A DNA stretch of 64,000 nt from Bradyrhizobium icense (lineage in GTDB: Bacteria; Pseudomonadota; Alphaproteobacteria; Rhizobiales; Xanthobacteraceae). The stretch spans positions 2,790,001 through 2,854,000 of the forward strand of contig NZ_CP016428.1 in assembly GCF_001693385.1 (NCBI RefSeq). The letters are read 5' to 3'. Below, in pieces: positions 2,168 through 20,046 of this stretch (within the stretch, counting starts at the first letter, position 1; each line of letters opens with the position of its first letter). The position numbers and the translations under genes were made by a program. A model generated the notes under the pieces. That model made no database searches, was not told the DNA's origin, and saw only the letters and a program-made list of their open reading frames with translations.

Positions 2168-2184
2168 TGGTATACATAATGCCA
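2168..2184. promoter_or_regulatory. Putative GntR operator upstream of the CBS gene
   Basis: TGGTATACATAATGCCA matches the consensus TGGYAT-N5-ATGCCA shared by seven sites in the window. On the minus strand it begins 2 nt after a TTGACA box (2187-2192) and lies 34 bp before the CBS start codon, a position suited to repression. Confidence 0.7.
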
Positions 2185-2310
2185 AATGTCAACATGCGGA
2201 GGGTTGAATTCTCGCAGCCGAGATCGCGATAAATAGGCAGTATTGCTGACGTTTCTGGAAAGCGCCGTGACATTCCAGGAAGAGAGGGTGTCACTTTTGT
2301 CTGTCTCATA

Positions 2311-2327
2311 TGGCGTCAGGTATGCCA
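2311..2327. promoter_or_regulatory. Second putative GntR operator between CBS gene and oxlT
   Basis: TGGCGTCAGGTATGCCA differs from the consensus TGGYAT-N5-ATGCCA at one arm position. It lies 127 bp upstream of the 2168 site, between the CBS gene and the oxlT terminator, and may serve as an auxiliary site. Confidence 0.45.
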
Positions 2328-2343
2328 GAGCTTCCGCCCCCCC

Positions 2344-2378
2344 AAAAGAAAACGCGCCCACCCGGAGGGTGAGCGCGT
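2344..2378 (-). terminator. Rho-independent terminator of oxlT
   Basis: The stem 2352-2378 (ACGCGC-n-CACCC / GGGTG-n-GCGCGT, loop GGA) is followed on the minus strand by TTTTCTTTTG. It lies 28 bp beyond the oxlT stop codon. Confidence 0.85.
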
Positions 2379-2406
2379 CTCTTTCGGTAAAGCGATGGTG
2401 TCGCGA

Positions 2407-3702
2407 TCAGGCCGACACTTGCGATTTGGCGACCACGACCCTGCGCCAGGGCTTGAGCACCGCGATCGCCAGCAGCGAGGCCAGGATATTCGCGCCGGCC
2501 GCGACGATGAACACGGCGTCCCAGGTGCCCGACGACTGTTGCATGTAGTTCGCCACCGGCACCAACAGCGCCGCGGTGCCCTTTGCCGTGTAGAGCAGGC
2601 CGGCATTGGTGGCCGCGAACTTTGCGCCGAAAGTGTCGGTGCAGGTCGACGGGAAGAGGGAATAGATCTCACCCCAGGCGAAGAACACGAAGCCGGACAA
2701 GAGCACGAACCACACCGGATCGTGGCCCAGCATGTACAGGCCCCAGATGCCGATGCCTTCCATGCCGAACGCGATGAACATGGTGTTCTCGCGGCCGATC
2801 ATGTCGGATATCCAGCCGAAGAAGGGACGTGTCAGGCCGTTGAGGACGCGATCGATGGTGGCTGCGAACGTCACCGCCGTCATCGTCACCGCCATCAGCG
2901 TCACGGGCACGCTGTCGACCTTCCAGTCCACCGCGATCGGCTTCAGATTGGCGGTCACCATCAATCCGCCGGCACCGACGATCACGAACATGAAATACAT
3001 CAGCCAGAAAATCGGCTGACGGATCACCTCGGTCGGCTGATAGTTGCGCCGGGTCTGGATCACGTTGGCGTTCTGCGTCACCACAGGAACCTGTCCCGCC
3101 TTGGGCGAGAACATCAGGAAGGCGAGGATGACGATGATGATGCCTTGCCCGAGACCGAAATAGAGGAAGGTGGTCTGGAAGCCGGAGTCCCTGATCATCG
3201 CCTGGATCGGCGCGACCGTCAGCGCCGAGCCTGCGCCGAATCCGGCGGCGGTGATGCCGGCCGCAAGGCCGCGCTTGTCGGGAAACCATTTCAGCGCATT
3301 GCCGACGCAGGTGCCGTACACGCCACCCGCGCCGATGCCTGCGATGATCATGCCGAGATAGAAGCCGTTGAGCGTGGTGGCGTGAGCGTTGATGGCCCAT
3401 CCGATGGCGCAGAGAATGCCGCCGATGAGGACGACGATGCGCGGGCCGTATTTGTCGACGAACCATCCCTCGACCGGCACCAGCCAGGTCTCGAACAGCA
3501 CGAACAGCGTAAATGCCCACTGGATCGAGGCGCGATCCCATCCGAATTTCTGCTGGATGTCGGGGACGAAGAACGTCCAGCCATATTGGTAATTGGCGAT
3601 CATCACCATCGCGAGCACACCGATGGCTAATTGCGTCCAACGGTAGGTGTCGCTGACGCGAGCCGCCACAGGGGCCGCCGCTCCTTGCACTGTGTCCGTC
3701 AT
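2407..3702 (-). CDS. oxlT: MFS oxalate/formate antiporter, OxlT family
   Basis: This 431-residue major facilitator has twelve predicted membrane segments. Its N-terminal half, with YQYGWTFFVPDIQQKFGW, GWFVDKYGPR and an AGIGAGGVYGTCVGNALKWF segment, is characteristic of OxlT-type carriers that exchange oxalate for formate. It acts in the cytoplasmic membrane and would feed oxalate to Oxc/Frc and export formate. The ATG at 3702 follows TAGGAGGAAAG. An operator-like repeat lies at 3754 and a terminator at 2344, so it appears to be a single-gene transcript. Gene context (oxc, frc) supports the substrate, but other dicarboxylates cannot be excluded. Confidence 0.88.
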   Translation of the reverse strand: MTDTVQGAAAPVAARVSDTYRWTQLAIGVLAMVMIANYQYGWTFFVPDIQQKFGWDRASIQWAFTLFVLFETWLVPVEGWFVDKYGPRIVVLIGGILCAIGWAINAHATTLNGFYLGMIIAGIGAGGVYGTCVGNALKWFPDKRGLAAGITAAGFGAGSALTVAPIQAMIRDSGFQTTFLYFGLGQGIIIVILAFLMFSPKAGQVPVVTQNANVIQTRRNYQPTEVIRQPIFWLMYFMFVIVGAGGLMVTANLKPIAVDWKVDSVPVTLMAVTMTAVTFAATIDRVLNGLTRPFFGWISDMIGRENTMFIAFGMEGIGIWGLYMLGHDPVWFVLLSGFVFFAWGEIYSLFPSTCTDTFGAKFAATNAGLLYTAKGTAALLVPVANYMQQSSGTWDAVFIVAAGANILASLLAIAVLKPWRRVVVAKSQVSA

Positions 3703-3753
3703 CTTTCCTCCTAAGGCTGCTTCTAATCGATACCCGACAGCTGCGGCGGAGTG

Positions 3754-3770
3754 TGGTATATGTTATGCCA
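3754..3770. promoter_or_regulatory. Putative GntR operator upstream of oxlT
   Basis: TGGTATATGTTATGCCA matches the TGGYAT-N5-ATGCCA consensus exactly in both arms and lies 52 bp upstream of the oxlT start codon. Confidence 0.7.
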
Positions 3771-3840
3771 GTAGACAAGGATAAATTTGCATCCATTCCA
3801 GGATTTCGTAGCCGGCGCGAACGCGGCGCGAACAGGCACA

Positions 3841-3870
3841 AAAGAAAAAGGGCCGCGCAGTGCGCGGCCC
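3841..3870 (-). terminator. Rho-independent terminator of the tctC-tctB-tctA operon
   Basis: A perfect 9-bp stem GGGCCGCGC / GCGCGGCCC (3850-3870, loop AGT) is followed on the minus strand by CTTTTTCTTT. It lies 47 bp after the tctA stop codon. Confidence 0.88.
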
Positions 3871-3916
3871 CCAATTTTCTAAGCTGTTGCTCCGTAACGG
3901 CTTAACGCTACACCGC

Positions 3917-5416
3917 TCAGGCTACCGCAGACCGCAACCGGGTATATCCTTCCTGGATCACCGACCAGAACAACGCGATCAAGCCCAGGATCATGATCGT
4001 GCTGACCAGCGGGTTGGACAGGAATACGCCAAGCGATCCCTGGGATCCCAGAAGCGACTGCCTGAAGGCCTCTTCCGCCTTGTCGCCGAGCACGATGGCG
4101 AGCACCAGCGGGGCGAGGGGATAGTTGCACTTCTTGAGCAGATAGCCGATCACGCCGAACACCAGCATCAGCATGACGTCAAACGTGCTGCTGTGGACCG
4201 AATAGGCACCGATCGCGCATAGCACCAGAATAAGGGGGGCAATGATGCTGAAGGGCACGCGCAGGATAGCTGCGAAAATCGGTACGCAGGTGAGCACGAC
4301 GAGCAGGCCGACGATATTGCCGAGATACATCGAGGCGATCAGGCCCCAGACGAATTCTTTCTGTTCGACAAACAGCATCGGACCGGGCTGCAGGCCCCAG
4401 ATCAACAGGCCACCGAGCAACACTGCGGCCGTCGGAGAGCCCGGCACGCCGAGCGAGAGCATCGGCAACAGGGCCGCCGTGCCCGCGGCGTGCGCCGCGG
4501 TCTCCGGCGCAACGACGCCCTCGATCTCACCTTTGCCGAAATTTTTGCCGTTCTTGGCCACGCGCTTGGCGATGCCGTAACTCATGAAGGAAGCCGGAGT
4601 AGCGCCCGCCGGCGTAACGCCCATCCAGCAGCCGATGAAGCAGGAACGCAGCGAGGTCATCCAGTATTTGGGCAATTCCTTCCAGGTCTGCAGCACGACC
4701 CGCAGATTGATCTTGGCGTTACCGCCGCGGAAGGCGAGCCCTTCTTCCATCGTCAGCAGGATCTCGCCAATGCCGAACAGTCCGATCACGGCGATGAGGA
4801 AGTCGAAACCGTTCAGCAATTCGGTAAAGCCGAATGTCAGTCGCAACTGGCCTGTGATGGAGTCGAGTCCAACAGCGGCAAGCGCAAAGCCGATCATCAT
4901 TGCCGCAATGGTCTTGAAAGGCGGCTCCTTGCTCAATCCGACGAAGCTGCAGAACGCCAGGAAATATACCGCGAATTTCTCTGCGGGCCCGAATTGCAGG
5001 GCAAAGCTCGCGACCAGAGGCGCGACCAGCGTGATCATCGCCACGGCGAACAGCGCGCCGACGAAGGATGAGGTGAAGGCAGCGGTAAGTGCTTCGCCGG
5101 CCTTGCCCTGCTGCGCCATCGGATAGCCGTCGAACGTCGTGGCCACCGACCATGGCTCGCCGGGTATGTTGAAGAGAACCGAGGTGATCGCTCCGCCGAA
5201 CAACGCTCCCCAATAAATGCAGGACAGCATGATAATGGCCGATGTCGGCGGCATCGAGAATGTCAGCGGCAACAAGATCGCAACGCCATTGGCGCCGCCG
5301 AGTCCCGGCAGCACGCCGATGATGACGCCGAGCACGATGCCGAGGACCATCACCATGATGTTGAACGGCTGCAGCGCGACCGCAAAGCCGTGAAAAAGAT
5401 TGACGAGTTCTTCCAT
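3917..5416 (-). CDS. tctA: Tripartite tricarboxylate transporter large permease, TctA family
   Basis: This 499-residue membrane protein has about twelve membrane segments and the hallmark N-terminal segment GVIIGVLPGLGGANGVAILL plus a second GVPGSPTAAVLLGG repeat in the C-terminal half, the two inverted halves of TctA permeases. It forms the channel of a cation-driven, binding-protein-dependent carboxylate importer with TctB and TctC, which lie directly upstream in the order tctC-tctB-tctA. The substrate is unproven. The operator shared with oxlT, oxc and frc suggests oxalate or a related small carboxylate. Confidence 0.93.
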   Translation of the reverse strand: MEELVNLFHGFAVALQPFNIMVMVLGIVLGVIIGVLPGLGGANGVAILLPLTFSMPPTSAIIMLSCIYWGALFGGAITSVLFNIPGEPWSVATTFDGYPMAQQGKAGEALTAAFTSSFVGALFAVAMITLVAPLVASFALQFGPAEKFAVYFLAFCSFVGLSKEPPFKTIAAMMIGFALAAVGLDSITGQLRLTFGFTELLNGFDFLIAVIGLFGIGEILLTMEEGLAFRGGNAKINLRVVLQTWKELPKYWMTSLRSCFIGCWMGVTPAGATPASFMSYGIAKRVAKNGKNFGKGEIEGVVAPETAAHAAGTAALLPMLSLGVPGSPTAAVLLGGLLIWGLQPGPMLFVEQKEFVWGLIASMYLGNIVGLLVVLTCVPIFAAILRVPFSIIAPLILVLCAIGAYSVHSSTFDVMLMLVFGVIGYLLKKCNYPLAPLVLAIVLGDKAEEAFRQSLLGSQGSLGVFLSNPLVSTIMILGLIALFWSVIQEGYTRLRSAVA

Positions 5417-5449
5417 CCCGATAATCCAATCCTGACTGTGCGTCGTTGT

Positions 5450-5947
5450 TTAGATGCCGAGCCACTCTTCCACGGGTCCCTTTGGAAGCGGAACCATGAA
5501 CCAGCGCTCGAAAATGAAGTAGGTGACGATAGGCATGCCGAACGCCACCGCCAGAACGGTGAGCCAGCGGTATTTGCCCAGCCATCGCATGAACCATGCG
5601 ATGAAGATGATGGAGGCGACGTAGAGCCCGATGAATGGCATGGCGCCGACATAGATGGCGGTCGGAATGACGACGCTCAGAACCTGACGAAGCTGTCCCC
5701 ACTCGGCGAACAGTCGGTCATTGCCTTCGCGCATCCCGTTCCACAGATTGATCGCGCTGGAAGCGACGATGAAAAGTCCGATATAGAACGGGAAGAACCC
5801 GGCGCGGGGACCCTCAGCGCCCCAATTGATCCCCGCCTTGAGGCTGCCGACGATCACGATCACTCCGAACAGAGCGATCAGTAGGGTGACGCCTGCTTCC
5901 ACCAGTTTGTGGGTCGGGCCGGTGTTGCTCGAACTGCCTGTTGTCAT
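5450..5947 (-). CDS. tctB: Tripartite tricarboxylate transporter small permease, TctB family
   Basis: This 165-residue protein has four predicted membrane helices, as usual for TctB (DUF1468). The start MTTGSSSN at 5947 is preferred over an in-frame start upstream because GGAG lies 7 nt before it. It sits 33 bp upstream of tctA and 80 bp downstream of tctC. It is the poorly conserved small membrane subunit that couples TctA to the binding protein. Confidence 0.88.
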   Translation of the reverse strand: MTTGSSSNTGPTHKLVEAGVTLLIALFGVIVIVGSLKAGINWGAEGPRAGFFPFYIGLFIVASSAINLWNGMREGNDRLFAEWGQLRQVLSVVIPTAIYVGAMPFIGLYVASIIFIAWFMRWLGKYRWLTVLAVAFGMPIVTYFIFERWFMVPLPKGPVEEWLGI

Positions 5948-6027
5948 CGAAACTCCATGCGCAATCAAGCCCGCGGAAACCGAGCCCGCCGTCTGCGTCG
6001 CTACCCCAATAGATCAGTGCTTCTCGG

Positions 6028-7038
6028 TCAGTTGCTCGGAGCGAGGAAACCGGCCTCTTTCATCAGAGTCTGATGACGCTTTTCCTCGGCCTCGACCCAT
6101 TTGGCGTACTCTGCGCCGGTCAGGAAGGTCGTGTTGAATGCGCCGCTCTTCATGAATTCCTGCCACTCCGGAGTGGCGCGGATCTTCTTGAACAGCTCGA
6201 CGTAGTATTCGACCTGGTCCTTGGTGGCCCTCGGCGCCATGAAGATGCCACGCAGCATCAGATATTCCATGTCGAGACCTGCCGACTTGCAGGTCGGAAC
6301 GTCCTTCCAGCCCTTGCCGTCCGCGATCGGCTCGTCGTAGGCCATCGGCTTTGAGTCAAAAACGCAGAGCGGACGCAGCTTTCCGCCGCGCCATTGCGCG
6401 ACCGCCTCGATCGGATTGTTGACGGTGGAATCGACGTGGTTGCCGACGAGTTGAACGGCGACTTCGCCGCCGCCCTTGTAGGGAATATAGGTGAACTTGG
6501 TGCCGACCGCCTTTTCCACGGCGACAGTGATGATCTGATCTTCCTGCTTCGAGCCGGTGCCGCCCATCTTGATCGAGCCGGCGGGAGCGGCCTTCACTGC
6601 GTCGACGTAGTCCTTCACCGTCTTGTACGGCTTGTCGGCGTTCACCCACAGCACAAATTCATCCAGTGCCAGCATCGCGACCGGCGTTAGATCCTTCCAG
6701 TTGAAGGGAATTCCGGTTGCAAGGGGGGTCGTGAAGAGGTTGGAGAGCGTGATGATGATCTTGTGCGGATTTCCGCCCGATCCCTTGACATCGAGGAAGC
6801 CTTCGCCGCCGGCGCCGCCCGACTTGTTGATGACGACCAGCGGCTGCTTCATCAGATTGTGCTTGGTGACGATGCCCTGGATCGTGCGCGCCATCTGATC
6901 TGCGCCGCCGCCGGTGCCGGCGGGGACGATGAATTCGACGGGCCGCACTGGTTCCCACGCCGCAATTGCAGGAGCCATGACGCTGCTTGCGCACAGCGCT
7001 GCAATCGTCCCTAACGCAAGTTGTGTAGAACGCCTCAT
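6028..7038 (-). CDS. tctC: Periplasmic binding protein of the TTT family (TctC/Bug)
   Basis: This 336-residue protein has a Sec signal peptide ending near AIAAW. The Bug-type fold signatures follow: PVEFIVPAGTGGGADQMAR near the N-terminus and KMGGTGSKQEDQI in the middle. These proteins bind small carboxylates in the periplasm. The ATG at 7038 has GGGAG 8 nt upstream. A GTG at 7047 would sit directly on that Shine-Dalgarno. It is the first gene of the tctCBA operon. The nearest operator-like repeat is 337 bp upstream at 7375, which implies a long leader or another promoter. Confidence 0.92.
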   Translation of the reverse strand: MRRSTQLALGTIAALCASSVMAPAIAAWEPVRPVEFIVPAGTGGGADQMARTIQGIVTKHNLMKQPLVVINKSGGAGGEGFLDVKGSGGNPHKIIITLSNLFTTPLATGIPFNWKDLTPVAMLALDEFVLWVNADKPYKTVKDYVDAVKAAPAGSIKMGGTGSKQEDQIITVAVEKAVGTKFTYIPYKGGGEVAVQLVGNHVDSTVNNPIEAVAQWRGGKLRPLCVFDSKPMAYDEPIADGKGWKDVPTCKSAGLDMEYLMLRGIFMAPRATKDQVEYYVELFKKIRATPEWQEFMKSGAFNTTFLTGAEYAKWVEAEEKRHQTLMKEAGFLAPSN

Positions 7039-7374
7039 TTGCTTCACTCCCGTCGAACTGTGGTTACGCCGTTCTTCGCCGGCTTATTAAGTTCATTCCC
7101 GATCAAAAGATCGAGTCTTCATGCACCCATGATCGTCGCGCCGCAATGGTTGCCTCAACGCGACTCCCGCAGATTCGAATTGTACGAGGGGCCTGATCGG
7201 GCGGCATACGCTCCTTTCGGCCAATAGTGAATCTGAGAAGCGCAAGAAGCGGGGGAAGGCACGCTCGCGCTGCCTGTTCCTTGCGATATCGCCTTCGCTG
7301 TCCCTTGCGGACTGCACGGCCTGGCTCCCCCCTGGTAATGCGCCCTTGTTTTGGTATGAGCGTTTTCAGTATTG
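7039..7374. other. Long leader or intergenic stretch upstream of tctC
   Basis: I find no convincing gene here. Open frames on the minus strand have Arg-rich, low-complexity translations and no ribosome binding sites. If the site at 7375 controls tctC, this is a 5' leader of more than 300 nt. Confidence 0.45.
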
Positions 7375-7391
7375 TTGTATATGATATGCCA
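7375..7391. promoter_or_regulatory. Putative GntR operator upstream of the tctCBA operon
   Basis: TTGTATATGATATGCCA differs from the TGGYAT-N5-ATGCCA consensus at one position. A lone TGGTAT half-site lies 23 bp away at 7352. It is in the only long intergenic region upstream of tctC. Confidence 0.6.
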
Positions 7392-7475
7392 CCATGCAAA
7401 TGGTTTTTGGTTTCGATGGAAGACTAGGCCAATTTGTCGCAGGTGGCGCCCTGACGGGCAATTGGCGAGCGGAGA

Positions 7476-7505
7476 ACGAAAACGGCCCCGGAAACCGGGG
7501 CCGTT
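7476..7505 (-). terminator. Rho-independent terminator of the 45-residue gene
   Basis: A perfect 11-bp stem AACGGCCCCGG / CCGGGGCCGTT (7481-7505, loop AAA) is followed by TTTTCGTT on the minus strand, 73 bp after the small gene ends. Confidence 0.8.
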
Positions 7506-7578
7506 GATCGAAATACAACCGAAGATTGCTACTGGATTTCGCGAGCTGCCGCGTAAAAAAGCCCTTATTGTAGAAGCG

Positions 7579-7716
7579 TCAGAGACCGAAGGGGGGAAGG
7601 TCGCCGTTGCGAACCGCAATGCGGCTGCTCGCGATCAGCAAGCGGTCAATGGAAGCCATCAGGCGGCCGAACAGGGTGCCGGAGGGCAGGAGGCCGATGG
7701 ATGCAGTCTTGGACAT
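7579..7716 (-). CDS. 45-residue protein under the putative oxalate operator
   Basis: The frame reads MSKTASIGLLPSG... and ends RNGDLPPFGL. It has AGGGGAC 5 nt before the ATG, an operator-like repeat at 7774 and its own terminator at 7476, so it is a well-delimited small transcription unit. The C-terminal half (RLLIASSRIAVRNGDLP) has an amphipathic, Arg-containing pattern faintly like DUF1127 proteins of rhizobia, but I cannot assign a family or function. It lies between the TTT operon and a broken frc copy. Confidence 0.65.
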   Translation of the reverse strand: MSKTASIGLLPSGTLFGRLMASIDRLLIASSRIAVRNGDLPPFGL

Positions 7717-7773
7717 GGATGTCCCCTTTCTGAAGTGGCGGAGAAGCTCCGCTTTCGTGATAGGGGATAGTTT

Positions 7774-7790
7774 ATGTATACCAGATACCA
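7774..7790. promoter_or_regulatory. Putative GntR operator (half-conserved) upstream of the 45-residue gene
   Basis: On the minus strand the sequence is TGGTATCTGGTATACAT. One arm is perfect and the other departs from ATGCCA at three positions. It lies 58 bp upstream of the 7716 start codon. Confidence 0.45.
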
Positions 7791-7873
7791 CTAAACAACG
7801 GCATTGTTTGCATAGCAGCAATCGGACGTTTGCATTGCAGCAATAGGTCGACGTGCTGGCACTCCAGAATAAA

Positions 7874-7900
7874 AAAGGCCGCCGGAAGCCGGCGGCCTTT
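7874..7900 (-). terminator. Terminator copied with the frc fragment
   Basis: A stem AAAGGCCGCCGG / CCGGCGGCCTTT with loop AAG is followed by a run of T on the minus strand. It is the counterpart of the true frc terminator at 15976-16002, showing that the duplicated segment included the terminator. Confidence 0.75.
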
Positions 7901-7922
7901 GTATTCCAGAATCCCAGACTGC

Positions 7923-8144
7923 TCATTCGCCGCCTGCTTGCGCGGAGGCTCAAGCGCGCCGGAAATCGTGGATTTCGGCGACCTGGTGATCGCTGAAGCC
8001 GAGAACCTGGCGGAGGATTTGTCGGTGTGCTCGCCGAGCAGAGGCGAGCGGGTCACTTCGCTCGGTGAGTCCGACAGCTTGATCGGATTGCCGACCGAGA
8101 TGTACTTGCCGCGGGTCGGTGATCGACCTCGACCACGGTGCCGG
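7923..8144 (-). pseudogene. Decayed duplicate of the 3' end of frc
   Basis: About 220 bp match the last 73 codons of the intact frc (16023-16242) with scattered substitutions. One frame reads [18 protein letters not shown] as in Frc, then a base insertion and a deletion shift the frame before it returns at [13 protein letters not shown]. Homology stops at 8144, where the intact gene continues. There is no start. It is a non-functional leftover of a duplication or rearrangement that also carried the terminator. Confidence 0.88.
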
Positions 8145-8181
8145 ACAAGGAATGTTGGTAAGATTTGCCGAGGTGCGAACC

Positions 8182-8197
8182 ACACCCGAACGGGTGT
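8182..8197. promoter_or_regulatory. Inverted repeat upstream of the secretion cargo gene
   Basis: ACACCCG-AA-CGGGTGT is a perfect 7-bp inverted repeat 140 bp before the first cargo gene. It could be an operator for an unidentified regulator. No second copy was found in the window. Confidence 0.3.
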
Positions 8198-8337
8198 AAC
8201 TGATATCGTGTCTATCGCCCGAACGTTTGCGATCCGAATTGACGACTCGGCTTCTGGCTTGCCGAGGTGACATTCTCTCTCGAGTGAGGGAGGCGTCCGC
8301 CCGGTCGGCGCGAGGCAATTTCGGTAGGGCAACAGTC

Positions 8338-9675: not shown

Positions 9676-9850
9676 CTCGGCCGGCATTGGAGCTCACGGG
9701 GCTCGGCAACAAGCGGTAGCACTTCGGGCGTACACGGTTCGAAAAGGGTGGCATCAGCTTTGGCGGCTAGACCAATCCGGCATCGAAATCCAAAACTCGT
9801 GCTGTCCACATTGGGACACACAGTGTGCAAACCAGCTCAGGGAGACTGAC

Positions 9851-10484: not shown

Positions 10485-12278
10485 ATGCTGACGCCACCGC
10501 TTCGGCTGCAAACAATGTCACCAGCGCGGATGCCGTTGAAAGCGGCCTTGCGGGCCTGCGCAGGATCGCTCGGGCTCGTTTTCGCGTATAGCTGCAGCTA
10601 TAATCTTCTTCTCCTCGCGCCTTCGATCTATCTGCTTCAGATCTATGATCGGGTCCTGTCGAGTCGCAGCGGCGCTACGCTCCTGATGCTGACGTTGATC
10701 GTTGCGTTTACCGTCGTGGTTGGCGGCGTGCTTGACGCACTGCGCCGCGCTGCATTGGGCCGGATGGGCGAGTGGCTTGAAGAAGAACTCCATCCGGCAG
10801 CGCTCTCCGCGTGCTTCAAATACGCCTATGAGGCCGATCGGGCGCGGGCGTCGGAAGCCTATCGCGATCTTACGACCTTGCGTCAGTTCGCACAGTCTGG
10901 AGCATGCTCTACGCTGCTTGACGCGCTCTGGACGCCGCTTTTCCTCGGCGTTCTCTTCCTCGTGCATCCCTTGCTGGGCGTAATCGGCACACTCAGCGCG
11001 TTGGTCCTGCTCGCTCTAGGGCTTGCCGGAGACCGGCTCACGCAAGGCCCGCTGGCGCGATCGGCTGCTGCGCTGACGAGGAGTCACGGATGGTTCGGAA
11101 CGGCCGTCGGAAACCTCCAAATGATCAGAGCCATGGGGATGCTCGACGGCGCCACACGCCTGATCCGTCAGGCTGCGCAGGATGCTCGGAGCGAGCAAGA
11201 GATGGCGCAGCGCCGCCACGAAACCATCATGCTGATCTCCAAACCCGTGCGGGCGCTGACGCAGGTCGTGATCATGGGCACTGCCGCCTGGCTCGTTCTC
11301 GAGCAGGACAGAAATCCCGCCATCATCTTTGCCGCGAGTATGCTGTTCGGACGCGCGCTCCCGCCCATTGAAGGGGCGATTGCGGGCTGGAAGGCGTTCG
11401 AGATGGCTCTCGCCGCCTACCGCCGGCTCAATGACATCATGTCCGCAGTCACCCCGGCTGCAAGCGTCAGGACTCTCCCGGACAGGCCGAAGGGCGACCT
11501 CATCGTCAACAATGTCGGCGCCGTTCTGCCGGGATCGAACCATCTGTTCGTGAAGGGCGTGTCGTTTCGCCTCGCGCCAGGTGAATGTCTTGGCATCATC
11601 GGTCCATCGGGCTCCGGCAAATCCACGCTCGGCAAGATCATCGCTGGAATCTCGGCTCCAGCGGCAGGTTCGGTGCTGCTCGATGGCATCGACATTTCAG
11701 CCGTGCGCGATTTTGGCGGCGGGCGGCGGCTTGGATATCTGCCGCAGGATATCGAACTCTTCGGAGAAACCGCAAAGGACATCATTGCACGGCTGGACGA
11801 TGCCGATTTGCAGAAGGTCATTGAAGCAGCAAAGCTGGCCGGCATTCACGAGACGCTCATCCGGCTGCCGCAGTCGTACGACACGGTCGTCGTTGGCGGA
11901 GGCGCCAATCTGCCGCGCGGGTTTCGCCAGCGCCTTGGCCTTGCACGGGCGTTCTTTGGCGACCCGCACCTCGTGGTCCTCGACGAGCCTAACTCCAGCC
12001 TCGACGCGCTCGGCGAGCGCATGCTGTTCGACGCTATTGAATGGATGAAGGCCACCAATACGACTGTCATCATCATCACTCACCGGATCGGGATTCTCGG
12101 CGCAACGGACAAGATTGCCATCATGCAGGACGGTGCTGTCAGCGCATTCGGCGACAGCAGGGAAATTTTCGAGAGGTGCCTGGCCCGTCCCCAGGTCGCC
12201 ACACAACCCGTGCCCGGTCGTTCCGACCAGAAATGCGAAGGCGGCGTCGGCGCCTGGCCGCGGCCGAGCTTGCCATGA
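10485..12278 (+). CDS. Type I secretion ABC transporter, PrtD family
   Basis: This 597-residue protein has an N-terminal membrane domain (about 1-300) and a C-terminal ATPase. Walker A is GPSGSGKST (K379), the Q-loop is GYLPQDIELFG, Walker B is VVLDEPNSSLD and the H-loop is IITHR. It would form the inner-membrane motor of a type I secretion system. The signature motif is unusual: where LSGGQ is expected it reads LPRGF (residues 476-480), confirmed in the DNA as CTG CCG CGC GGG TTT. It is followed 50 bp later by the HlyD adaptor. The outer-membrane TolC partner is not in the window. The start is uncertain: ATG codons at 10485, 10515 and 10530 are possible. Confidence 0.9.
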   Translation: MLTPPLRLQTMSPARMPLKAALRACAGSLGLVFAYSCSYNLLLLAPSIYLLQIYDRVLSSRSGATLLMLTLIVAFTVVVGGVLDALRRAALGRMGEWLEEELHPAALSACFKYAYEADRARASEAYRDLTTLRQFAQSGACSTLLDALWTPLFLGVLFLVHPLLGVIGTLSALVLLALGLAGDRLTQGPLARSAAALTRSHGWFGTAVGNLQMIRAMGMLDGATRLIRQAAQDARSEQEMAQRRHETIMLISKPVRALTQVVIMGTAAWLVLEQDRNPAIIFAASMLFGRALPPIEGAIAGWKAFEMALAAYRRLNDIMSAVTPAASVRTLPDRPKGDLIVNNVGAVLPGSNHLFVKGVSFRLAPGECLGIIGPSGSGKSTLGKIIAGISAPAAGSVLLDGIDISAVRDFGGGRRLGYLPQDIELFGETAKDIIARLDDADLQKVIEAAKLAGIHETLIRLPQSYDTVVVGGGANLPRGFRQRLGLARAFFGDPHLVVLDEPNSSLDALGERMLFDAIEWMKATNTTVIIITHRIGILGATDKIAIMQDGAVSAFGDSREIFERCLARPQVATQPVPGRSDQKCEGGVGAWPRPSLP

Positions 12279-12328
12279 TCCGCGGCAAATATCCTCACCA
12301 TCGCTTTGCCTGAGGGGAATGGGATCTC

Positions 12329-13837
12329 ATGAGAATTTCATTCGCTCACCTCTACATCCGGGCGGTTCAACGGTGGGTGAGAGCGGCGGCGCCAGCGTTC
12401 TGCGACAGGCTTGGCGGTGTCACCTCGATCCGTATCTGGCATTTCCAGGGTCTCCTGGCCCGAAGAGGGCGGGATCGTCTGAAAGCTGCAATCGCTCACG
12501 CCGAGATCTGGCAGGTCCCGCGGTGGTTGAGATCGGCGCCGCCGGCGCTCCGCGACCGGCTTCGCGGCATCACCTGGACAGGAAACGTGCTGGCTTTCGG
12601 CTTTGTCGTTGGTCTCGGTACCTGGTCAACCTATGCTCCCCTCGAGAGCGCCGCGATTGCTGTCGGCACCGTCGAATCCGAGTCGAGCCGCAAGACGATT
12701 CAGCACCTTGAAGGTGGCATCATCAGGGAGATTCTGGTCGCGGACGGCGACGTTGTCCGCGCCGGACAGACGCTGATCTCGCTGGAAGACACCAAGGCTC
12801 GCGCCGAAGCCCAGAGTCTGCAAGGCCAGTTGTGGGAAGCGGTGGCACGAGAGGCGCGGCTGCAGGCGGAACAGCAGGGCGACTGGCGGGTGTCATTCCC
12901 GCCCAGATTGGAGACGGCGCAGAATGCCAGTCCGTCGGTCGCGGATGTGCTTGCGGGCCAGCAAGCCATTTTCGAAACCCGTCGGCAGGTCTTTCAATCG
13001 CAAGCGGCCGTAATTCGGGAAAAAAGGTCGCAGGTAGAAAAAGAGATCGAGGGCCTCAGGGCGCAGGAAAGCGCGGCCTCAAGGCGCATCGAAATCGTCC
13101 GCGAAGAAGCGACGACCGTCGCCATGCTCGTTAACAGGGGACTTGAGCGGCGTCCGCGGCTTCTGAACCTTGAGCGGGAGATGGCTGACATCGAGGGGCG
13201 GCGGGGTGAGGTTGTCGCGCAGATATCGCGCGCCGGGCAGGTTATCAACGAATCGCAGGCAACTCTTCTCAAACTCGAGAACGATCGCCAGAACGAGATC
13301 GCGCAGTCGCTGCGCGAGGTGCAAAACCAGATTTTTCAGATACGCGAACGACTGCAGGCGGCCGACGACCAACTGTCACGAACGGCGGTCAAGGCACCCC
13401 AGGATGGCGTGGTAACGGACCTGAGGATTCATACTCCAGGCGGCGTCATTGGCGCCGGCGCACCTCTCATGGATCTGGTTCCTCGGCAGGATCGACTCAT
13501 CGTGATTGCGCGTGTCAGGCCCGAGGACATCGACGTGGTCCGCCCCGGACTGAGCGCCGACGTGAATCTTCTGCCCTACAACCAGCGCCGCGTACCACGG
13601 CTCCAGGGGACTGTGACGCACGTTTCTGCCGACCGTCTGGTCGACAAGCGTACCGATCAGCCCTACTACGCAACGAAGATTCGGGTGCAGGACCCGGCAA
13701 GCACCGGGATCGATGGTGTCCAGATTGTTCCGGGAATGCCGGCCCAGGTGTTCATCAAGACGGGCCGCGGCACCGTCGCGCTCTACGCTCTCCGGCCCCT
13801 GCTCGACAGCTTCCACGGCGCGTTCCGCGAGGATTGA
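12329..13837 (+). CDS. Type I secretion membrane fusion protein, HlyD family
   Basis: This 502-residue adaptor has an N-terminal cytoplasmic part of about 85 residues, one membrane segment (NVLAFGFVVGLGTWSTYAPL), a split lipoyl-type domain (HLEGGIIREILVADGDVV and later TAVKAPQDGVVTDLRIHTPGGV), a long coiled coil between them and a C-terminal beta domain with MPAQVFIKTG. It bridges the ABC exporter and an outer-membrane channel. The N-terminal extension is longer and more Arg-rich than in typical HlyD/PrtE proteins. It is the last gene of the secretion unit and converges on the regulator gene. Confidence 0.92.
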   Translation: MRISFAHLYIRAVQRWVRAAAPAFCDRLGGVTSIRIWHFQGLLARRGRDRLKAAIAHAEIWQVPRWLRSAPPALRDRLRGITWTGNVLAFGFVVGLGTWSTYAPLESAAIAVGTVESESSRKTIQHLEGGIIREILVADGDVVRAGQTLISLEDTKARAEAQSLQGQLWEAVAREARLQAEQQGDWRVSFPPRLETAQNASPSVADVLAGQQAIFETRRQVFQSQAAVIREKRSQVEKEIEGLRAQESAASRRIEIVREEATTVAMLVNRGLERRPRLLNLEREMADIEGRRGEVVAQISRAGQVINESQATLLKLENDRQNEIAQSLREVQNQIFQIRERLQAADDQLSRTAVKAPQDGVVTDLRIHTPGGVIGAGAPLMDLVPRQDRLIVIARVRPEDIDVVRPGLSADVNLLPYNQRRVPRLQGTVTHVSADRLVDKRTDQPYYATKIRVQDPASTGIDGVQIVPGMPAQVFIKTGRGTVALYALRPLLDSFHGAFRED

Positions 13838-13869
13838 GCTGCGACCAGAACTGCGAGCTCGGGCAGCTC

Positions 13870-14643
13870 TCAAGAAGACCGCACGCGTGAGGGCTGCGCA
13901 TGACCGTTGGCTCGCCGGCTCCAGCGAACGACCGCCTCGGTGCGATTATGCGCGGAGCATTTTCGCATGATACGTTGAATATGCATTTTTACAGTGTTTT
14001 CCGAAAGGTTGAGCCTGACGGCAATCAACTTGTTCGGAAGGCCGAGCTGCAACGCCTCCAGCACATGTTGTTCGCGTGGCGTAAGGTCGACCATCGCCTT
14101 CTCCGGCACAATCCTGGTGCCGCCGTTATCCTCGTTCGTTACGATTGGTTCGGACGCGTCGGGGCATCCCGATATCGCCTTCGACGCTCCATTTTGCCCA
14201 ACGATCGGTAACGGTCGGTAGACCCCACCGGCAAGGACCAGGCGTAATCCGGCAATAGCGACTTCGACCGGGATCGATGTCGGAAAGAAGCCACGCACTC
14301 CGCGTTGCATCGCAGCCGAAGCCGTCGCATCGTCGTCGCGATTTGACAACACGGCAACGAACGCTTTAGGGCAGGTTTCTGCAAGCAGGGCGAGGCTCGC
14401 CTCGATCGAAGGGTCAGTGATCTGCTTGTGCCCGATATTCAGCGCAATCAAGCGGATGTCTCTGCCGGATAGCCAGTTCAGGCCACCAGTCGTTGCCATC
14501 TCGACGATCTCGAATCCAGTGAGTTCTCTCTTGAGGATATTGAGGATGCACGTACGCGCCAGGACATGTTGCTCGATGATCACGAGCACCGGCGAGTTTT
14601 GTGATACCAAGGCGAGTTCTGCGGGATTAGAAAAATCGTCCAT
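13870..14643 (-). CDS. NarL/LuxR-type regulator with a non-canonical receiver domain
   Basis: This 257-residue protein has an N-terminal receiver-like domain (about 15-135) and a C-terminal LuxR helix-turn-helix (LTPREQHVLEALQLGLPNKL... about 185-240). At the expected phosphoacceptor position the third strand reads IRLIALNIGHK, giving Asn69 instead of Asp, and the acidic pair after strand one is Glu24-Gln25. It is therefore probably not controlled by aspartyl phosphorylation, like atypical orphan response regulators. No sensor kinase is adjacent. It converges on the secretion genes and is a candidate regulator for them, but that is only positional. Confidence 0.88.
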   Translation of the reverse strand: MDDFSNPAELALVSQNSPVLVIIEQHVLARTCILNILKRELTGFEIVEMATTGGLNWLSGRDIRLIALNIGHKQITDPSIEASLALLAETCPKAFVAVLSNRDDDATASAAMQRGVRGFFPTSIPVEVAIAGLRLVLAGGVYRPLPIVGQNGASKAISGCPDASEPIVTNEDNGGTRIVPEKAMVDLTPREQHVLEALQLGLPNKLIAVRLNLSENTVKMHIQRIMRKCSAHNRTEAVVRWSRRANGHAQPSRVRSS

Positions 14644-14670
14644 GATGTTCCCGAATTCAGAGATTAGCTG

Positions 14671-14856
14671 TCACTCCACAAGTTTTGATTTCCATTTTCC
14701 ATGGAGCAAATCTGCCCCACACACTCTGCAGCGAATTTGCTGCTGATCGCGACGTTGCTTCCGACTTTCGAATTCGTGGAACGTCGTCAGAGGACCTTCT
14801 GGTCCGTCGCAACAGATCTTGGCAGCGGTTCTGTCGTTCCAGGCTAACTGCTGCAA
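14671..14856 (-). CDS. Possible CxxC-containing small protein
   Basis: A frame of 61 codons starting at TTG 14856 overlaps the end of the lipoprotein gene by 13 nt. It contains an ICCDGPEG pair and a CRVCGADL pair, a pattern compatible with a small zinc-binding protein, with a plausible composition (FHEFESRKQ). There is no ATG and no strong ribosome binding site, so it could be translationally coupled, a remnant or not real. Confidence 0.3.
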   Translation of the reverse strand: MQQLAWNDRTAAKICCDGPEGPLTTFHEFESRKQRRDQQQIRCRVCGADLLHGKWKSKLVE

Positions 14857-15452
14857 ATATTGCGATAGGCGCTCGCCGCCGCTGAATTCGCGGGACCATC
14901 GACGACGAATGCTTCATCTTCCGTCACGAGATATAGAAACGGCCTATCGCCGGTATCTTCGCCCGACGGCTTTTTACCTTTGACACGGCCGCAAATGGTG
15001 TCGACGGACTGCCCGAGCGTATTTTTGCGGATGGCCCGTTTCATCTCACCGAACTCGGCAGACGCCGGCTCCTCCAATTTCGCGGCAATCGTGGTCTTCG
15101 CCTTGATAATGACCGGATCGGACGTCGCAGCGGGCCGACCAGATGCCGGAGCTTCGACTTTCGCTTCGACCGTGGTGGACTTCGCCTTTTTCTCAGCGAG
15201 TTGAGACTTGTCGCGGACGTGGGCAATCGTCGGCTCTTGCGTCTTCGTCGCGATCGTGGCCTTGACTTTTGTTGTTGCGGAATTGGTTTTGGATGGGGCT
15301 GACGCGGGCTCAATCGGCCGGCTGGCCGCCATCCCGTTGAGACAGCCGGACCCACTCGCGTCCGTGCATGCTTCCATGCTTGCTTGCGGCGGTAAGAGGC
15401 AGCTACAGCCAACCAGGGTCGCAGCCAGAACACCAATGAGAAGCGTTCTCAT
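14844..15452 (-). CDS. Ala/Lys/Thr-rich putative lipoprotein
   Basis: This 202-residue protein begins MRTLLIGVLAATLVGCSCLL with an LVGC lipobox (Cys16), so it should be exported and lipidated. Residues about 45-140 are a low-complexity stretch with repeated KAKTTIAAK-type words, likely extended. The C-terminal 60 residues (TICGRVKGKKPSG... YLVTEDEAFVVDG) form a compact, conserved-looking domain with two cysteines. GAGGG lies upstream of the ATG. No function can be assigned. Confidence 0.75.
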   Translation of the reverse strand: MRTLLIGVLAATLVGCSCLLPPQASMEACTDASGSGCLNGMAASRPIEPASAPSKTNSATTKVKATIATKTQEPTIAHVRDKSQLAEKKAKSTTVEAKVEAPASGRPAATSDPVIIKAKTTIAAKLEEPASAEFGEMKRAIRKNTLGQSVDTICGRVKGKKPSGEDTGDRPFLYLVTEDEAFVVDGPANSAAASAYRNICSS

Positions 15453-15975
15453 GCTAATCCCTCATAAAAGGGGCCTGAGGTCCGCTCGCAATTCTTGCGG
15501 CGATCTAAGATGTTGCGCTGGTTGTCTATCATTCGCGCAAAAGTCTTAACTGCTTGTTAAACGCCCATCCTTCGCCGCAGCGCGCTCCAGCATCGTTAAT
15601 TCCGGAGCAACGCAGTTTCGCGGTGGGTGGGCGTTGCGATGATGGAGAGCGTTGCCGGTCCCAAGAGATAGCTGGGAGCGCCGTCATCGATTCGTATGTC
15701 GCATGTCCGCCCCTGGGCCCATAGCCGACCTTGCTCTGCTATCCCCGACATCCGCTTGCCGACGTAAAGCTGTCAGTCCTTCAAAGGGCCAAGGATAGAA
15801 TCGATGGGGCAAGTCTGCGGGCCGTCTGTTGCGGGTCCTTCGCAACCACCACCAAAAGCTGAACAACATTCAGAAGCTCATCTGTACCGCATCTTCGATG
15901 CGACTTCCCTGCAAGCGGAAGTGCGGCGGGTGGCCGCCGTACCGACTCAACCTGATTTCCTCTCGCCCAAACAAA
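15453..15975. other. Intergenic stretch with one structured palindrome
   Basis: No gene is supported between the lipoprotein start and the frc terminator. The only structure seen is the nested inverted repeat at 15560-15635. Confidence 0.5.
15560..15635. other. Nested inverted repeat, possible structured RNA or cruciform
   Basis: The outer arms AACGCCCATCC and GGGTGGGCGTT pair over 10 of 11 bases, a CGCCGC/GCGGTG pair lies inside, and a GCTCC/GGAGC helix closes the centre. The layout suggests a branched hairpin of about 76 nt. There is no T-tract. Transcription is unknown. Confidence 0.3.
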
Positions 15976-16002
15976 AAAGGCCGCCGAAAACCGGCGGCCT
16001 TT
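15976..16002 (-). terminator. Rho-independent terminator of the gntR-oxc-frc operon
   Basis: A perfect stem AAAGGCCGCCG / CGGCGGCCTTT with loop AAAAC is followed by TTT TGTTTG on the minus strand, 20 bp beyond the frc stop. Confidence 0.85.
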
Positions 16003-16022
16003 CGTGTGTTCGGATGGCGTCG

Positions 16023-17300
16023 TTATTCCGCCGCCTGCTTCCGCGCCGGCTCGAGCGCGCCGGAATCGTGGATTTCGGCGACCTGGTGATCGCTGAAGCC
16101 GAGAACCTGGCGCAGGATCTCGTCGGTGTGTTCGCCGAGCAGCGGGGAGCGGGTCACCTCGCTCGGTGAGTCCGACAGTTTGATCGGGTTGCCGACCGAG
16201 ATGTACTTGCCGCGGGTCGGATGATCGACCTCGACCACGGTGCCGGTCGCGCGCAGCGACTGATCCTCGATGATCTCCTTCATCGACAGGATCGGGCCGC
16301 AGGGGATATCGTCTTTGTTGAGAATTTCCATCGCCTCGAACTTGGTCTTGGTCATCGTCCACTGCTCGATGCGTGCGAAGATCTCGTTGAGGCGCGACAG
16401 CCGGGCCGGCGGCTTGGCGTAATCCGGATGGGTCTTCCAGCCGGGTTCGCCGATCACGTCGCAGATCTTCTCCCACACCGGCGCCTGGGTGATGAAGTAG
16501 AGATAGGCGTTGGGATCGGTCTCCCAACCCTTGCACTTCAGGATACGGCCGGGCTGGCCGCCGCCGGAATCGTTGCCCGCGCGCGGCACGGCGTCGCCGA
16601 ACGGAATGCCTTCGCCATACTGGCTGTATTCCTTGAGCGGGCCATGGGCGAGGCGCTGCTGGTCGCGCAGTTTGACGCGCGCAAGATTCAACACGCCGTC
16701 CTGCATCGCTGCGGTGACGCGCTGGCCCTTGCCCGAGTGGGTGCGCTGATAGAGCGCGGTGACGATGCCGAGCGCCAGATGCAACCCGGTGCCGCTGTCG
16801 CCGATCTGCGCGCCGGTGACGAGCGGCAGCCCGTCGCGGAAGCCGGTGGTCGAGGCGGCGCCGCCGGTGCACTGCGCGACGTTCTCATACACCTTGCAGT
16901 CTTCATACGGGCCGGGACCAAAGCCCTTGATCGAGGCCACGATCATCTTCGGGTTGATGCTGTGGATCTTCTCCCAGGGGAAACCCATGCGGTCGAGCAC
17001 GCCGGGGCCGAAATTTTCCACCAGCACGTCGCAGCTCTTGATCAGCGCGGTGAGGACTTCCTTGCCCTTCGGGTTCTTGGTGTCGAGCGTGATCGAACGC
17101 TTGTTGTGGTTCAGCATGGTGAAATACAGGCTGTCCACATTCGGGATGTCCTGCAACTGACCGCGCGTGATGTCGCCGACGCCGGGGCGCTCGACCTTGA
17201 TCACGTCGGCGCCGAACCAGGCCAGCAATTGCGTGCAGGTCGGGCCCGACTGAACGTGGGTGAAATCGAGAATGCGAACGCCCGTGAGCGCCTTTGTCAT
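16023..17300 (-). CDS. frc: Formyl-CoA:oxalate CoA-transferase
   Basis: This 425-residue class III CoA-transferase moves CoA from formyl-CoA to oxalate, giving oxalyl-CoA and formate in the cytoplasm. The catalytic aspartate is Asp168 in [17 protein letters not shown], matching Asp169 of the Oxalobacter enzyme. Gln17 (THVQSGPTC) and the Gly-rich [13 protein letters not shown] and NDSGGGQPG loops are also present. Length is as in the family. It lies 59 bp after oxc and just before a strong terminator, as the last gene of gntR-oxc-frc. A broken copy of its 3' end lies at 7923. Confidence 0.96.
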
Positions 17301-17359
17301 CGTCTTTGCTCCGTACTGTGTCTGTACTGCGTGATGCAGGATGAATGGATTGAACTCGG

Positions 17360-19090
17360 TTATTTCTTTTTCAGAACGCTTTGCGGGTTGAGGTTGCCGA
17401 TGCGGCCGCTCTCCGAGCCTGCCGCCGGATCGATCACGGCGTTGATCAGCGTCGGCTTGCCGGAATCCATTGCCTCGTTGACGGCACGCTTCAGCTCGTC
17501 GGGCGAAGTGGCGTTGATGCCGACGCCGCCGAAGGCTTCCATCATCTTGTCGTAGCGCGAGCCCTTGACGAATACCGTCGTCGCCGGATCGGAACCGCCC
17601 GTGTTGACGTCGGTGCCGCGATAGATGCCGTCATTGTTGAAGATGACGATGCAGACCGGAAGCTGGTAGCGGCAGATGGTCTCGATCTCCATGCCGGAAA
17701 AGCCGAACGCCGAGTCGCCCTCGACCGCGAGCACGGGCTTGCCGGTTTCGACGGCCGCTGCAATCGAATAGCCCATGCCGATGCCCATCACACCCCAGGT
17801 GCCGACGTCGAGCCGCTTGCGCGGCTTGTACATGTCGATGACGCCGCGGGCGAGGTCGAGCGTGTTGGCGCCTTCGTTGACGAGGATGGCGTCCGGCCGT
17901 TCCTTGATGATGGTGCGCAGTGCGCCGAGCGCGCCGTGATAGTCCATCGGGGAAGCGTTGCTCATCAACTTCGGCGCCATCTTGGCGACGTTGTCGTCAC
18001 GCTTCTTGTTGACGGTCGAGACCCAGTCGGCTGGCGCGGCCGGCCAGTTGCCGCCCATGCCCTCGAGCAGAGCGGACACGCAGGAGCCGATATCGCCGAC
18101 CACGGGGGCCGCGATCTCGACGTTGGAATCCATCTCCTTCGGTTCGATGTCGACCTGGATGAATTTCTTCGGCGCATCGCCCCAGGTCTTGCCTTTGCCG
18201 TGCGACAACAGCCAGTTGAGGCGGGCGCCGATCAGCATCACGACGTCGGCGTCCTTCAGCACGGTCGAGCGCGCGGCACCGGCCGACTGCGCATGCGTGT
18301 CGGGCAGCAGGCCCTTGGCCATGCTCATCTGCAGAAACGGTGCGCCGGTCTTTTCGACCAAGGCGCGGATCTCGTTGTCGGCCTGCGCGTAAGCTGCGCC
18401 CTTGCCGAGAATGATGAGGGGACGCTTTGCGCCCTTGAACACGTCGAGCGCGCGCTTGACCGCCGACGGGCTAGGGATCTGGGCGGGGGCTGCGTCAATC
18501 ACCTTCACCAGCGACTTCGCGCCCGCGCCGGCGTCCATCACCTGGCCGAAAAGTTTCGCCGGCAGGTCGAGATAGACACCGCCTGGGCGTCCCGACACCG
18601 CTGCGCGGATCGCGCGGGCGAGACCGATGCCGATGTCGGCGGCATGCAGCACGCGGAAGGCTGCCTTGCAGAGCGGCTTGGCGATCGCAAGCTGGTCCAT
18701 CTCTTCATAGTCGCCCTGCTGCAGGTCGACGATCTCGCGCTCGGAGGAACCCGAGATCAGGATCATCGGGAAGCAGTTGGTGGTGGCGTGAGCCAGCGCT
18801 GTGAGGCCATTGAGAAAGCCGGGCGCCGAGACCGTGAGGCAGACGCCTGGTTTCTTGGTGAGAAAGCCGGCGATCGAGGCCGCGTAGCCGGCGTTCTGCT
18901 CGTGGCGGAACGACAATACACGCATGCCCGCGGCCTGCATCATGCGTCCGAGGTCGGTGATCGGGATGCCCGGCACACCATAGATAGTATTGATGCCGTT
19001 GAGCTTGAGCGCGTCGATGACGAGATGAAAGCCATCCGTCAGCTCTTGCTCGGTGCCCGGTGCTTCGGACTTGGTCGCGGTATTCAGCAT
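17360..19090 (-). CDS. oxc: Oxalyl-CoA decarboxylase
   Basis: This 576-residue ThDP enzyme converts oxalyl-CoA to formyl-CoA and CO2. It shows the catalytic glutamate in [12 protein letters not shown] (about residue 62), the central NAD/ADP-like domain, and the ThDP/Mg motif [20 protein letters not shown] with IFNNDG near residues 455-485. The start at 19090 is preferred because GGGAG lies 9 nt upstream. An ATG at 19099 would abut that Shine-Dalgarno. It lies 66 bp after gntR and is followed by frc, giving the complete oxalate decarboxylation cycle. Confidence 0.96.
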
Positions 19091-19156
19091 GGGCTTCATC
19101 TCCCTGATCGTTTTGGTTCGGACGATTTTTCGTCGTCTTCTGGTGCGAAGGTTCGT

Positions 19157-19888
19157 CTAGCTAAAAAGTTCCTGCCCGTGCGCTTCAACGTAGGCGGCAA
19201 GGCCCAGCGTGTGGTCCCGCGCGCGCTTCTCGGCGAGTTCGGTGTCGCGTGCTTCCAGCGCTTCGATGATGGCAAGATGCTCGGGCAGCGAGGTCGCGGT
19301 GCGGTCCTTCCGCCCGATGGTCAATTGCCGATAGCCGCGCACATGCAGCAGGAGATCGTTGGTCAGATCGACCAAGACCGGCGATTCCGAAAGCGAGATC
19401 AGCGCCTGATGGAACGCGATGTTGGCCCTGGAGTATTCCTCGACATGATCCTGCGGCAGCCGGTCCTTGCCAAAGTCCTTGAAGAAATCGCGCAGCGCGG
19501 TGATGTCCTTCTTGCGCGCGGTGGTCGTGATCAGGCGTGCTGCCATGCTCTCGAGCGCGGCCCAGGCGCGGATCATGTCGACGATTTCGGTCTTGGTGCG
19601 GCGGACCACGACGATGCCGCGACGCGGCACGGTTTTGACGAAACCGTCCTGTTCCAGCATCGCGATGGCTTCGCGAATAGGGGTGCGGCTGACGCCGAGG
19701 CGTTCGGACAGCGCGCGCTCATCGAGCATCACCTGCTCGGGTGTCGCATAGATATCCATCTTGAGAATAGCTTCCTTCAAGGCCTCGTAGGCCTTGTTCT
19801 TGAAGCTCGTCTCAGGCGCAATCCGGACGATTGCGATATCTGCCTCAGCCATGACAGGCGGCGCCTTGGTTTGTTTACGTGCGGGCAC
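19157..19888 (-). CDS. GntR-family regulator, FCD subgroup, of the oxalate cluster
   Basis: This 243-residue protein has an N-terminal winged helix (about 28-95, with LSERLGVSRTPIREAIAMLEQDGF) and an all-helical FCD effector domain (about 105-225). The GTG start at 19888 follows GGAG with a 7-nt spacing. It is the first gene of gntR-oxc-frc and is divergent from the acyl-CoA ligase gene. Two near-identical inverted repeats (19949, 20030) lie between them, and further copies lie before oxlT, the CBS gene, tctCBA and a small gene. I infer that it is the repressor that binds these sites and that a CoA thioester or carboxylate relieves it. Confidence 0.92.
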   Translation of the reverse strand: MPARKQTKAPPVMAEADIAIVRIAPETSFKNKAYEALKEAILKMDIYATPEQVMLDERALSERLGVSRTPIREAIAMLEQDGFVKTVPRRGIVVVRRTKTEIVDMIRAWAALESMAARLITTTARKKDITALRDFFKDFGKDRLPQDHVEEYSRANIAFHQALISLSESPVLVDLTNDLLLHVRGYRQLTIGRKDRTATSLPEHLAIIEALEARDTELAEKRARDHTLGLAAYVEAHGQELFS

Positions 19889-19948
19889 GACTCGTCTCCT
19901 CCCTGTTTTGGAGACGTCTTCTTAGCAGAAGAAACACCCGAAGATTTT

Positions 19949-19965
19949 TGGCATACCAAATACCA
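19949..19965. promoter_or_regulatory. Putative GntR operator in front of gntR-oxc-frc
   Basis: TGGCATACCAAATACCA is one base from the perfect repeat at 20030. On the minus strand it begins 3 nt after TTGACA (19969-19974) and lies 61 bp before the gntR start codon, as expected for autoregulation. Confidence 0.75.
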
Positions 19966-20013
19966 GTATGTCAAGATGCCCGTGTTTTCGCTGTTTCCGC
20001 GCGATAGTTTGTC

Positions 20014-20046
20014 TTGACAATCTAATCTCTGGCATACCAAATGCCA
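20014..20046 (+). promoter_or_regulatory. Promoter with putative GntR operator before the acyl-CoA ligase gene
   Basis: TTGACA at 20014-20019 is followed 10 nt later by TGGCATACCAAATGCCA (20030-20046), the best example of the repeat. The operator would cover the spacer and -10 region. The -10 hexamer itself is not clear. CAGGAGGAAGCCA follows as ribosome binding site. Confidence 0.75.

Follow-up and report, generated by a model that had tools for sequence, protein, structure and literature searches.

The metal site of FCD domains is formed by an Asp/His3 ligand set, and one FCD-type GntR protein, VanR, bears a name that points to vanillate genes, not to oxalate. Three of the described proteins closest to the regulator discussed here share its fold. 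PmiR of Pseudomonas aeruginosa (PDB 7xp0, 7xp1) is the closest solved relative by sequence profile (E 2.8e-46); it is 26-27% identical to the model of our regulator, and no link of PmiR to oxalate genes was seen here. VanR (Atu1419) of Agrobacterium fabrum (PDB 6z74, 6za3, 6za7) ranks with the top Foldseek matches (E 1.7e-9) at about 25% identity; this FCD-type GntR protein is described as a repressor in its PDB entries, and one of the structures is on palindromic DNA. TM0439 of Thermotoga maritima (PDB 3sxy, 3fms) is a metal-binding FCD regulator. For a neighbouring C2-acid pathway, the accessible part of one report (PMC11323563) describes the FadR-subfamily GntR protein GlcR of Paracoccus denitrificans, which together with BhcR controls glycolate and glyoxylate genes; oxalate strengthened DNA binding by BhcR in vitro, and that P. 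denitrificans strain did not grow on oxalate. In the open literature searched, including the available portions of PMC5996035, PMC12981067, PMC7486775, PMC11323563, PMC8305402 and PMC5987411, we came across no GntR regulator of oxalate catabolism and no described regulator for the oxc-frc route; subscription papers and RegPrecise lie outside that scope. Judged by sequence comparison, the locus presented below would hold a new regulator and a new regulon within the known FCD-type GntR class, and an earlier description is still possible.

Plants and fungi supply oxalate, which serves as a carbon source in soil and root nodules. The stretch of DNA analysed here (the window) comprises 64,000 nucleotides of the Bradyrhizobium icense genome and carries genes of oxalate breakdown, all but one of them on the minus strand. 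The regulator gene gntR (19157-19888) is followed by oxc, for oxalyl-CoA decarboxylase (17360-19099; TIGR03254, 1022 bits against a cut-off of 739), and frc, for formyl-CoA transferase (16023-17300; TIGR03253, 747 bits against 504). Divergent from these, on the plus strand, lies the gene of an NDP-forming acyl-CoA ligase (20072-22237) with matches to PF19045, PF13549 and PF13607 that passes no NCBIfam equivalog cut-off. This conserved enzyme may start the cycle by making formyl-CoA, oxalyl-CoA or another CoA donor. The window also encodes the oxalate/formate antiporter OxlT (2407-3702; TIGR04259, 655 bits against 335), and a tripartite transporter is encoded by tctCBA (3917-7047), in which TctA and TctC are recognised by Pfam and tctB (5450-5968) by its position and by tblastn in relatives. 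Further members are a CBS-domain protein (1703-2134; PF00571), the PanE/ApbA-like protein encoded behind it (456-1544; a weak PF02558 match above the cut-off) and a 45-residue protein (7579-7716), an open reading frame with no Pfam match and 639 relatives at E ≤ 0.001. The 45-residue gene is conserved in the genus, encodes a C-terminal FGL and has its own putative operator. Relatives of the PanE/ApbA-like protein at 54-66% identity occur in three oxalate clusters. In Cupriavidus necator, according to the accessible part of PMC7486775, deletion of apbA2 slowed growth on oxalate, from which the authors infer a CoA-acylating glyoxylate dehydrogenase; this result makes oxalyl-CoA reductase a candidate role for the gene at 456-1544, and by analogy a fair guess. 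The locus is bordered by the gene of a BhcR-like IclR protein (22348-23208).

The regulator itself is of the class first proposed for it. Its N-terminal winged helix matches PF00392 (49.9 bits against a cut-off of 27) and its C-terminal all-helical FCD domain matches PF07729 (78.9 bits against 24.3), and its gene lies next to two of the sites described below, at 19949 and 20030. An AlphaFold2 model (pLDDT 84.8) has helices in the FCD part and matches FCD GntR structures in Foldseek; a PADLOC scan returned a weak helix-turn-helix match only. In the FCD pocket, His160, His204 and His226 align with the histidines of TM0439, but Asn156 takes the place of the TM0439 aspartate, as it does in 26 of 26 rows of the clade and 3 of 6 outgroup rows. 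A further histidine, His182, is shared by all 26 rows of the clade and missing from all six of the outgroup. These residues would fit a small dianion such as oxalate.

Seven copies of a 17-bp inverted repeat, all of them real, had been reported before these genes in a preliminary description under the consensus TGGYAT-N5-ATGCCA, which is better written TGGYAT-N5-ATRCCA. Against the latter form four sites have no mismatch, two have one and one has two; with the stricter form the 19949 site is perfect on the minus strand only, and the 7774 site falls beyond a limit of two mismatches. The perfect putative operators stand before the CBS/PanE-like gene pair (2168-2184), oxlT (3754-3770, with sites in the same place in relatives), gntR-oxc-frc (19949-19965) and the acyl-CoA ligase gene (20030-20046). 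One mismatch each is found in a second, weaker site before the CBS gene (2311-2327, TGGCGTCAGGTATGCCA) and in a site about 330 bases before tctC (7375-7391, TTGTATATGATATGCCA), for which several loci of the genus have similar sites, 297-334 bases upstream of that gene. The variant before the 45-residue gene (7774-7790, ATGTATACCAGATACCA) has two mismatches and is kept as TGGYATCTGGTATACAT in 8 of the 9 loci of the genus examined. The statement that the window holds no other copy is correct at up to one mismatch and fails at two, where several extra matches exist. With up to two mismatches allowed, the window gives 27 strand-matches, against a mean of 6.9 in 100 shuffled sequences (largest value 19, so that 27 was never reached).

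We propose, with a probability of roughly 0.8 and on the strength of sequence comparison, that this motif is the operator of the GntR protein encoded at 19157-19888, which would act as a local repressor of the oxalate genes and also of two distant targets, fdhBA and sucC, and would be released by oxalate or its CoA thioester. What is observed of this model is the sites, their positions, their conservation, the company of genes in which they are found and their co-occurrence with the regulator.

The whole genome was scanned by pattern searches (the consensus with mismatches), the reversed pattern serving as control. The single-contig genome of 8.32 Mb holds six perfect TGGYAT-N5-ATRCCA sites, four of them in the window. 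The other two, which were invisible to a reader of the window alone, stand 55 bp before a formate dehydrogenase operon and between mdh and sucC. The operon consists of a fused NuoE/NuoF-like gene followed by the alpha gene (TIGR01591, 719 bits against a cut-off of 666). A scatter across the genome unrelated to oxalate genes, which would have spoken against a regulon, is thus not what is seen: all six perfect sites lie upstream of oxalate, formate or succinyl-CoA genes. Ten related genomes hold 4-8 perfect sites each; the control pattern is absent from seven of them and occurs once in each of the other three. When up to one mismatch is allowed, the B. icense genome has 46 sites, and the reversed pattern gives 13. 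Six of the 46 belong to the window, another overlaps the sucC site and 39 are others; two of these 39 are the fdhB and sucC sites themselves, 21 lie inside genes predicted by codon usage and 16 outside. Most one-mismatch sites beyond the window look like chance. The predicted proteins flanking 10 of the 16 non-genic sites were read, and further targets of the regulon may be present among the 16.

The motif accompanies relatives of the regulator well beyond this genome. In 76 loci around such relatives (the window, L024-L090 and eight stretches of the genus), the pattern TGRYAT-N5-ATRYCA, with no more than one mismatch, gives 205 sites and its reversal gives 7, a difference for which we claim no p-value because the loci, many of one genus, are not independent. 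Regions upstream of pathway genes of the reference panel make up 12.4% of the sequence and contain 168 of the 205 motif sites and 1 of the 7 reversed ones. At least one upstream site is present in 65 of the 76 loci; its lack in the other 11 counts against the regulon. Named loci whose GntR is 92-98% identical to that of the window are mostly from Bradyrhizobium. Around more distant GntR proteins (19 loci, L091-L109) the counts are 27 for the motif and 10 for the reversed pattern, which shows that weak matches also arise in unrelated, often AT-rich DNA.

Relatives of this GntR in Phyllobacterium, Azospirillum, Cupriavidus and further bacteria are found in oxalate clusters with the motif before the same gene families. 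For example, a Phyllobacterium plasmid carries frc, a thiamine-pyrophosphate enzyme, a 45-residue gene, oxlT, the ligase gene, sucC, sucD and gntR. The thiamine-pyrophosphate enzyme occupies the place of oxc and is only 25% identical to the Oxc of the window. Five intergenic sites with up to one mismatch precede the thiamine-pyrophosphate gene, the 45-residue gene, oxlT, the ligase gene and gntR. The small gene of this cluster, which has its own putative operator, is also of exactly 45 codons (L024:3413-3550), and its product ends in PFGL. In Azospirillum, tctCBA, a TerC gene, a CBS gene and gntR are together, with one site, before tctC. The sites might instead be bound by another regulator, such as the BhcR-like IclR protein, whose gene adjoins the locus here and lies beside sites in L187 and L188; against this, the clusters L024, L031 and L038 have sites and no detected bhcR-like gene, and gntR is the locus-defining gene throughout. 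From such clusters we judge binding by the BhcR-like protein very improbable.

As a separate observation, two other genomes of the genus (G108 and G015) have perfect sites before a bhcR-like IclR gene itself (L187:7896-8022 and L188:8430-8641), in the company of CBS and oxlT-like genes in L187 and of a second sucCD in L188, hinting that oxalate control reaches glyoxylate genes in these two genomes.

The distribution of the regulator follows that of the pathway. Among 249 genomes of the host's order, 49 have oxc and 65 have this GntR (E at most 1e-50); the regulator is found in 47 of the 49 genomes with oxc against 18 of the 200 without it, a comparison for which the Fisher test treats related genomes as independent. 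As to the two exceptions, G265 has a 43% homolog next to oxc, and in G271, a genome 76% complete, sucC is still preceded by a perfect site and oxc by one with a single mismatch. Within the genus the GntR is present in 192 of 195 genomes and in all 183 of the nearly complete ones. This co-occurrence and the motif in the relatives' oxalate clusters bear out, at the level of comparison, the link between regulator and sites put forward in the preliminary description. Eight stretches around gntR relatives were sampled from genomes without oxc. Three of them (L192, L195 and L196) carry no gene of the reference panel besides gntR, nor a site before any panel gene. The remaining five retain frc, tct, ligase or sucCD genes: L193, L198 and L199 have, beyond doubt, a site with at most one mismatch before gntR or a pathway gene, and L194 has a one-mismatch site before tctC. 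L197, in which gntR, frc, the ligase gene and fdhBA are together, has no detected site, and this also counts against the regulon.

The position of the sites relative to promoters suggests how they might work. Three sites of the window lie 2-10 nt behind a TTGACA box, as first noted: the gaps are 2 bases at 2168 (in gene orientation), 3 at 19949 and 10 at 20030. For a wider count we took sites from -30 to 400 bases from the start of a reference gene with full flanks (222) and merged identical contexts, which left 204; sites without a reference gene were dropped beforehand, and the 204 distinct sites include many orthologous sites of one genus. An exact TTGACA starts 9 bases before the site in 23 cases, 16 bases before it in 12, and 8 and 17 bases before it in 5 each (45 of 204); no other single offset accounts for more than 4. 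The fixed spacing comes mainly from the genus of the window and its near relatives (38 of the 45 cases). Where a TTGACA stands directly before the site, the operator falls between -35 and -10. This position points to a repressor that blocks RNA polymerase, and repression would be the likeliest sign of regulation. At fdhB, the site overlaps a plausible promoter, TTGGCA-N17-TAGAGT, as read by eye.

The consensus of sigma-54 (-24/-12) promoters is TGGCAC-N5-TTGC, with an invariant GC at -13/-12. It is resembled by TGGCAT-N5-ATGC, and the GG-GC spacing fits in the TGGCAT-N5-ATGCCA form, but the motif is symmetric, and we consider it almost inconceivable that it is such a promoter. This candidate was rejected on base counts: read in gene orientation, 91 of the 204 sites have the required GC at -13/-12 and 90 have AC there. 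That the GntR binds the sites and activates, or acts both ways, when holding its inducer is unlikely: some sites do lie 200-400 bases from the gene start, and other FadR-subfamily regulators, e.g. GlcC, activate (PMC11323563, accessible part), but TTGACA, where found, is mostly directly before the site, where a bound dimer would sit on the promoter.

Under the repressor model, a GntR dimer without inducer would cover TGGYAT-N5-ATRCCA on or just behind the -35 box and block transcription. Its local targets would be its own operon gntR-oxc-frc, the divergent acyl-CoA ligase gene, oxlT, tctCBA, the CBS/PanE-like pair and the 45-residue gene; in this genus it would also act at a distance, on the formate dehydrogenase genes fdhBA and the succinyl-CoA synthetase gene sucC. 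The protein would be released from DNA by oxalate or by a CoA thioester derived from it, and our guess is that the inducer is oxalate itself, in the FCD pocket. Binding by this GntR, repression and the identity of the inducer are what we infer in this model. The presence of fdhBA and sucC among the targets would also suit a genuine regulon that answers to glyoxylate, formate or another C1/C2 metabolite and not to oxalate or its CoA esters. Frc and Oxc of Bradyrhizobium diazoefficiens were more abundant in a cytoplasm-enriched fraction on arabinose, the breakdown of which passes through glyoxylate (PMC5996035, accessible part). However, the site-bearing clusters examined mostly contain frc, oxc, oxlT, tct or ligase genes, and no glyoxylate-only cluster was seen among them, so that we think such a signal rather improbable.

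Most genomes of the genus that were examined have the oxalate operator on the mdh-linked sucC. Of 30 sucC loci compared within the genus, 28 have a perfect site, one has a site with a single mismatch and one has none (no match within three mismatches in 200 bases), while the bases around the site vary. The genus exception, G015, has a second sucCD copy with a one-mismatch and a perfect site upstream. Four genomes of other genera with two sucC copies (G452, G459, G492 and G497) have a one-mismatch site before only one of the two, the copy that lies within 10 kb of gntR. In another genus, G424 has a perfect site at its one listed sucC copy. The fdhB site, in 30 related loci, is perfect in 18 and has one mismatch in 7 and two in 5. 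Elsewhere these genes are close to the regulator, fdhBA inside the gntR cluster in L197 and sucCD beside gntR in several lineages. On balance, we lean slightly towards the view that an oxalate-sensing repressor captured a TCA-cycle gene, and that its operator tracks whichever succinyl-CoA synthetase serves oxalate activation, tying the supply of succinyl-CoA and CoA donors to oxalate. Second sucC copies near gntR in G474, G476 and G505 have no detected site, which speaks against such tracking. In a family-wide test, sites with up to one mismatch were found in 6 of 47 sucC upstream regions of gntR-positive genomes and 0 of 13 of gntR-negative ones, a difference that is weak evidence by itself; the test covered 60 of 82 sucC places, with a region of only 222 bases for L260 and the second sucC place of G437 left out.

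The operator offers a ready definition of the oxalate regulon from alpha- to gammaproteobacteria. It points to candidate parts of the pathway (the acyl-CoA ligase, tctCBA, the CBS protein, the PanE-like candidate oxalyl-CoA reductase and the 45-residue protein) and adds two enzymes to it, formate dehydrogenase and one of the TCA cycle. If binding is as proposed, the GntR protein could be used as an oxalate sensor.

Two minor features of the locus may be added. Between the tct genes and frc, at 10485-15452, are genes for a type I secretion pair (ABC transporter and HlyD) and for a protein whose C-terminal helix-turn-helix is of the LuxR/NarL type; no link of these genes to oxalate was seen here. 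Before the 45-residue gene, beyond its putative operator, TGCTGCNATGCAAAC occurs in two tandem copies on the minus strand, 22 bases apart (7807-7843). No copy is present at the Phyllobacterium locus L024; one or two precede the 45-residue gene in eight other loci of the genus and its relatives, and it is possible that a second regulator acts through these repeats.
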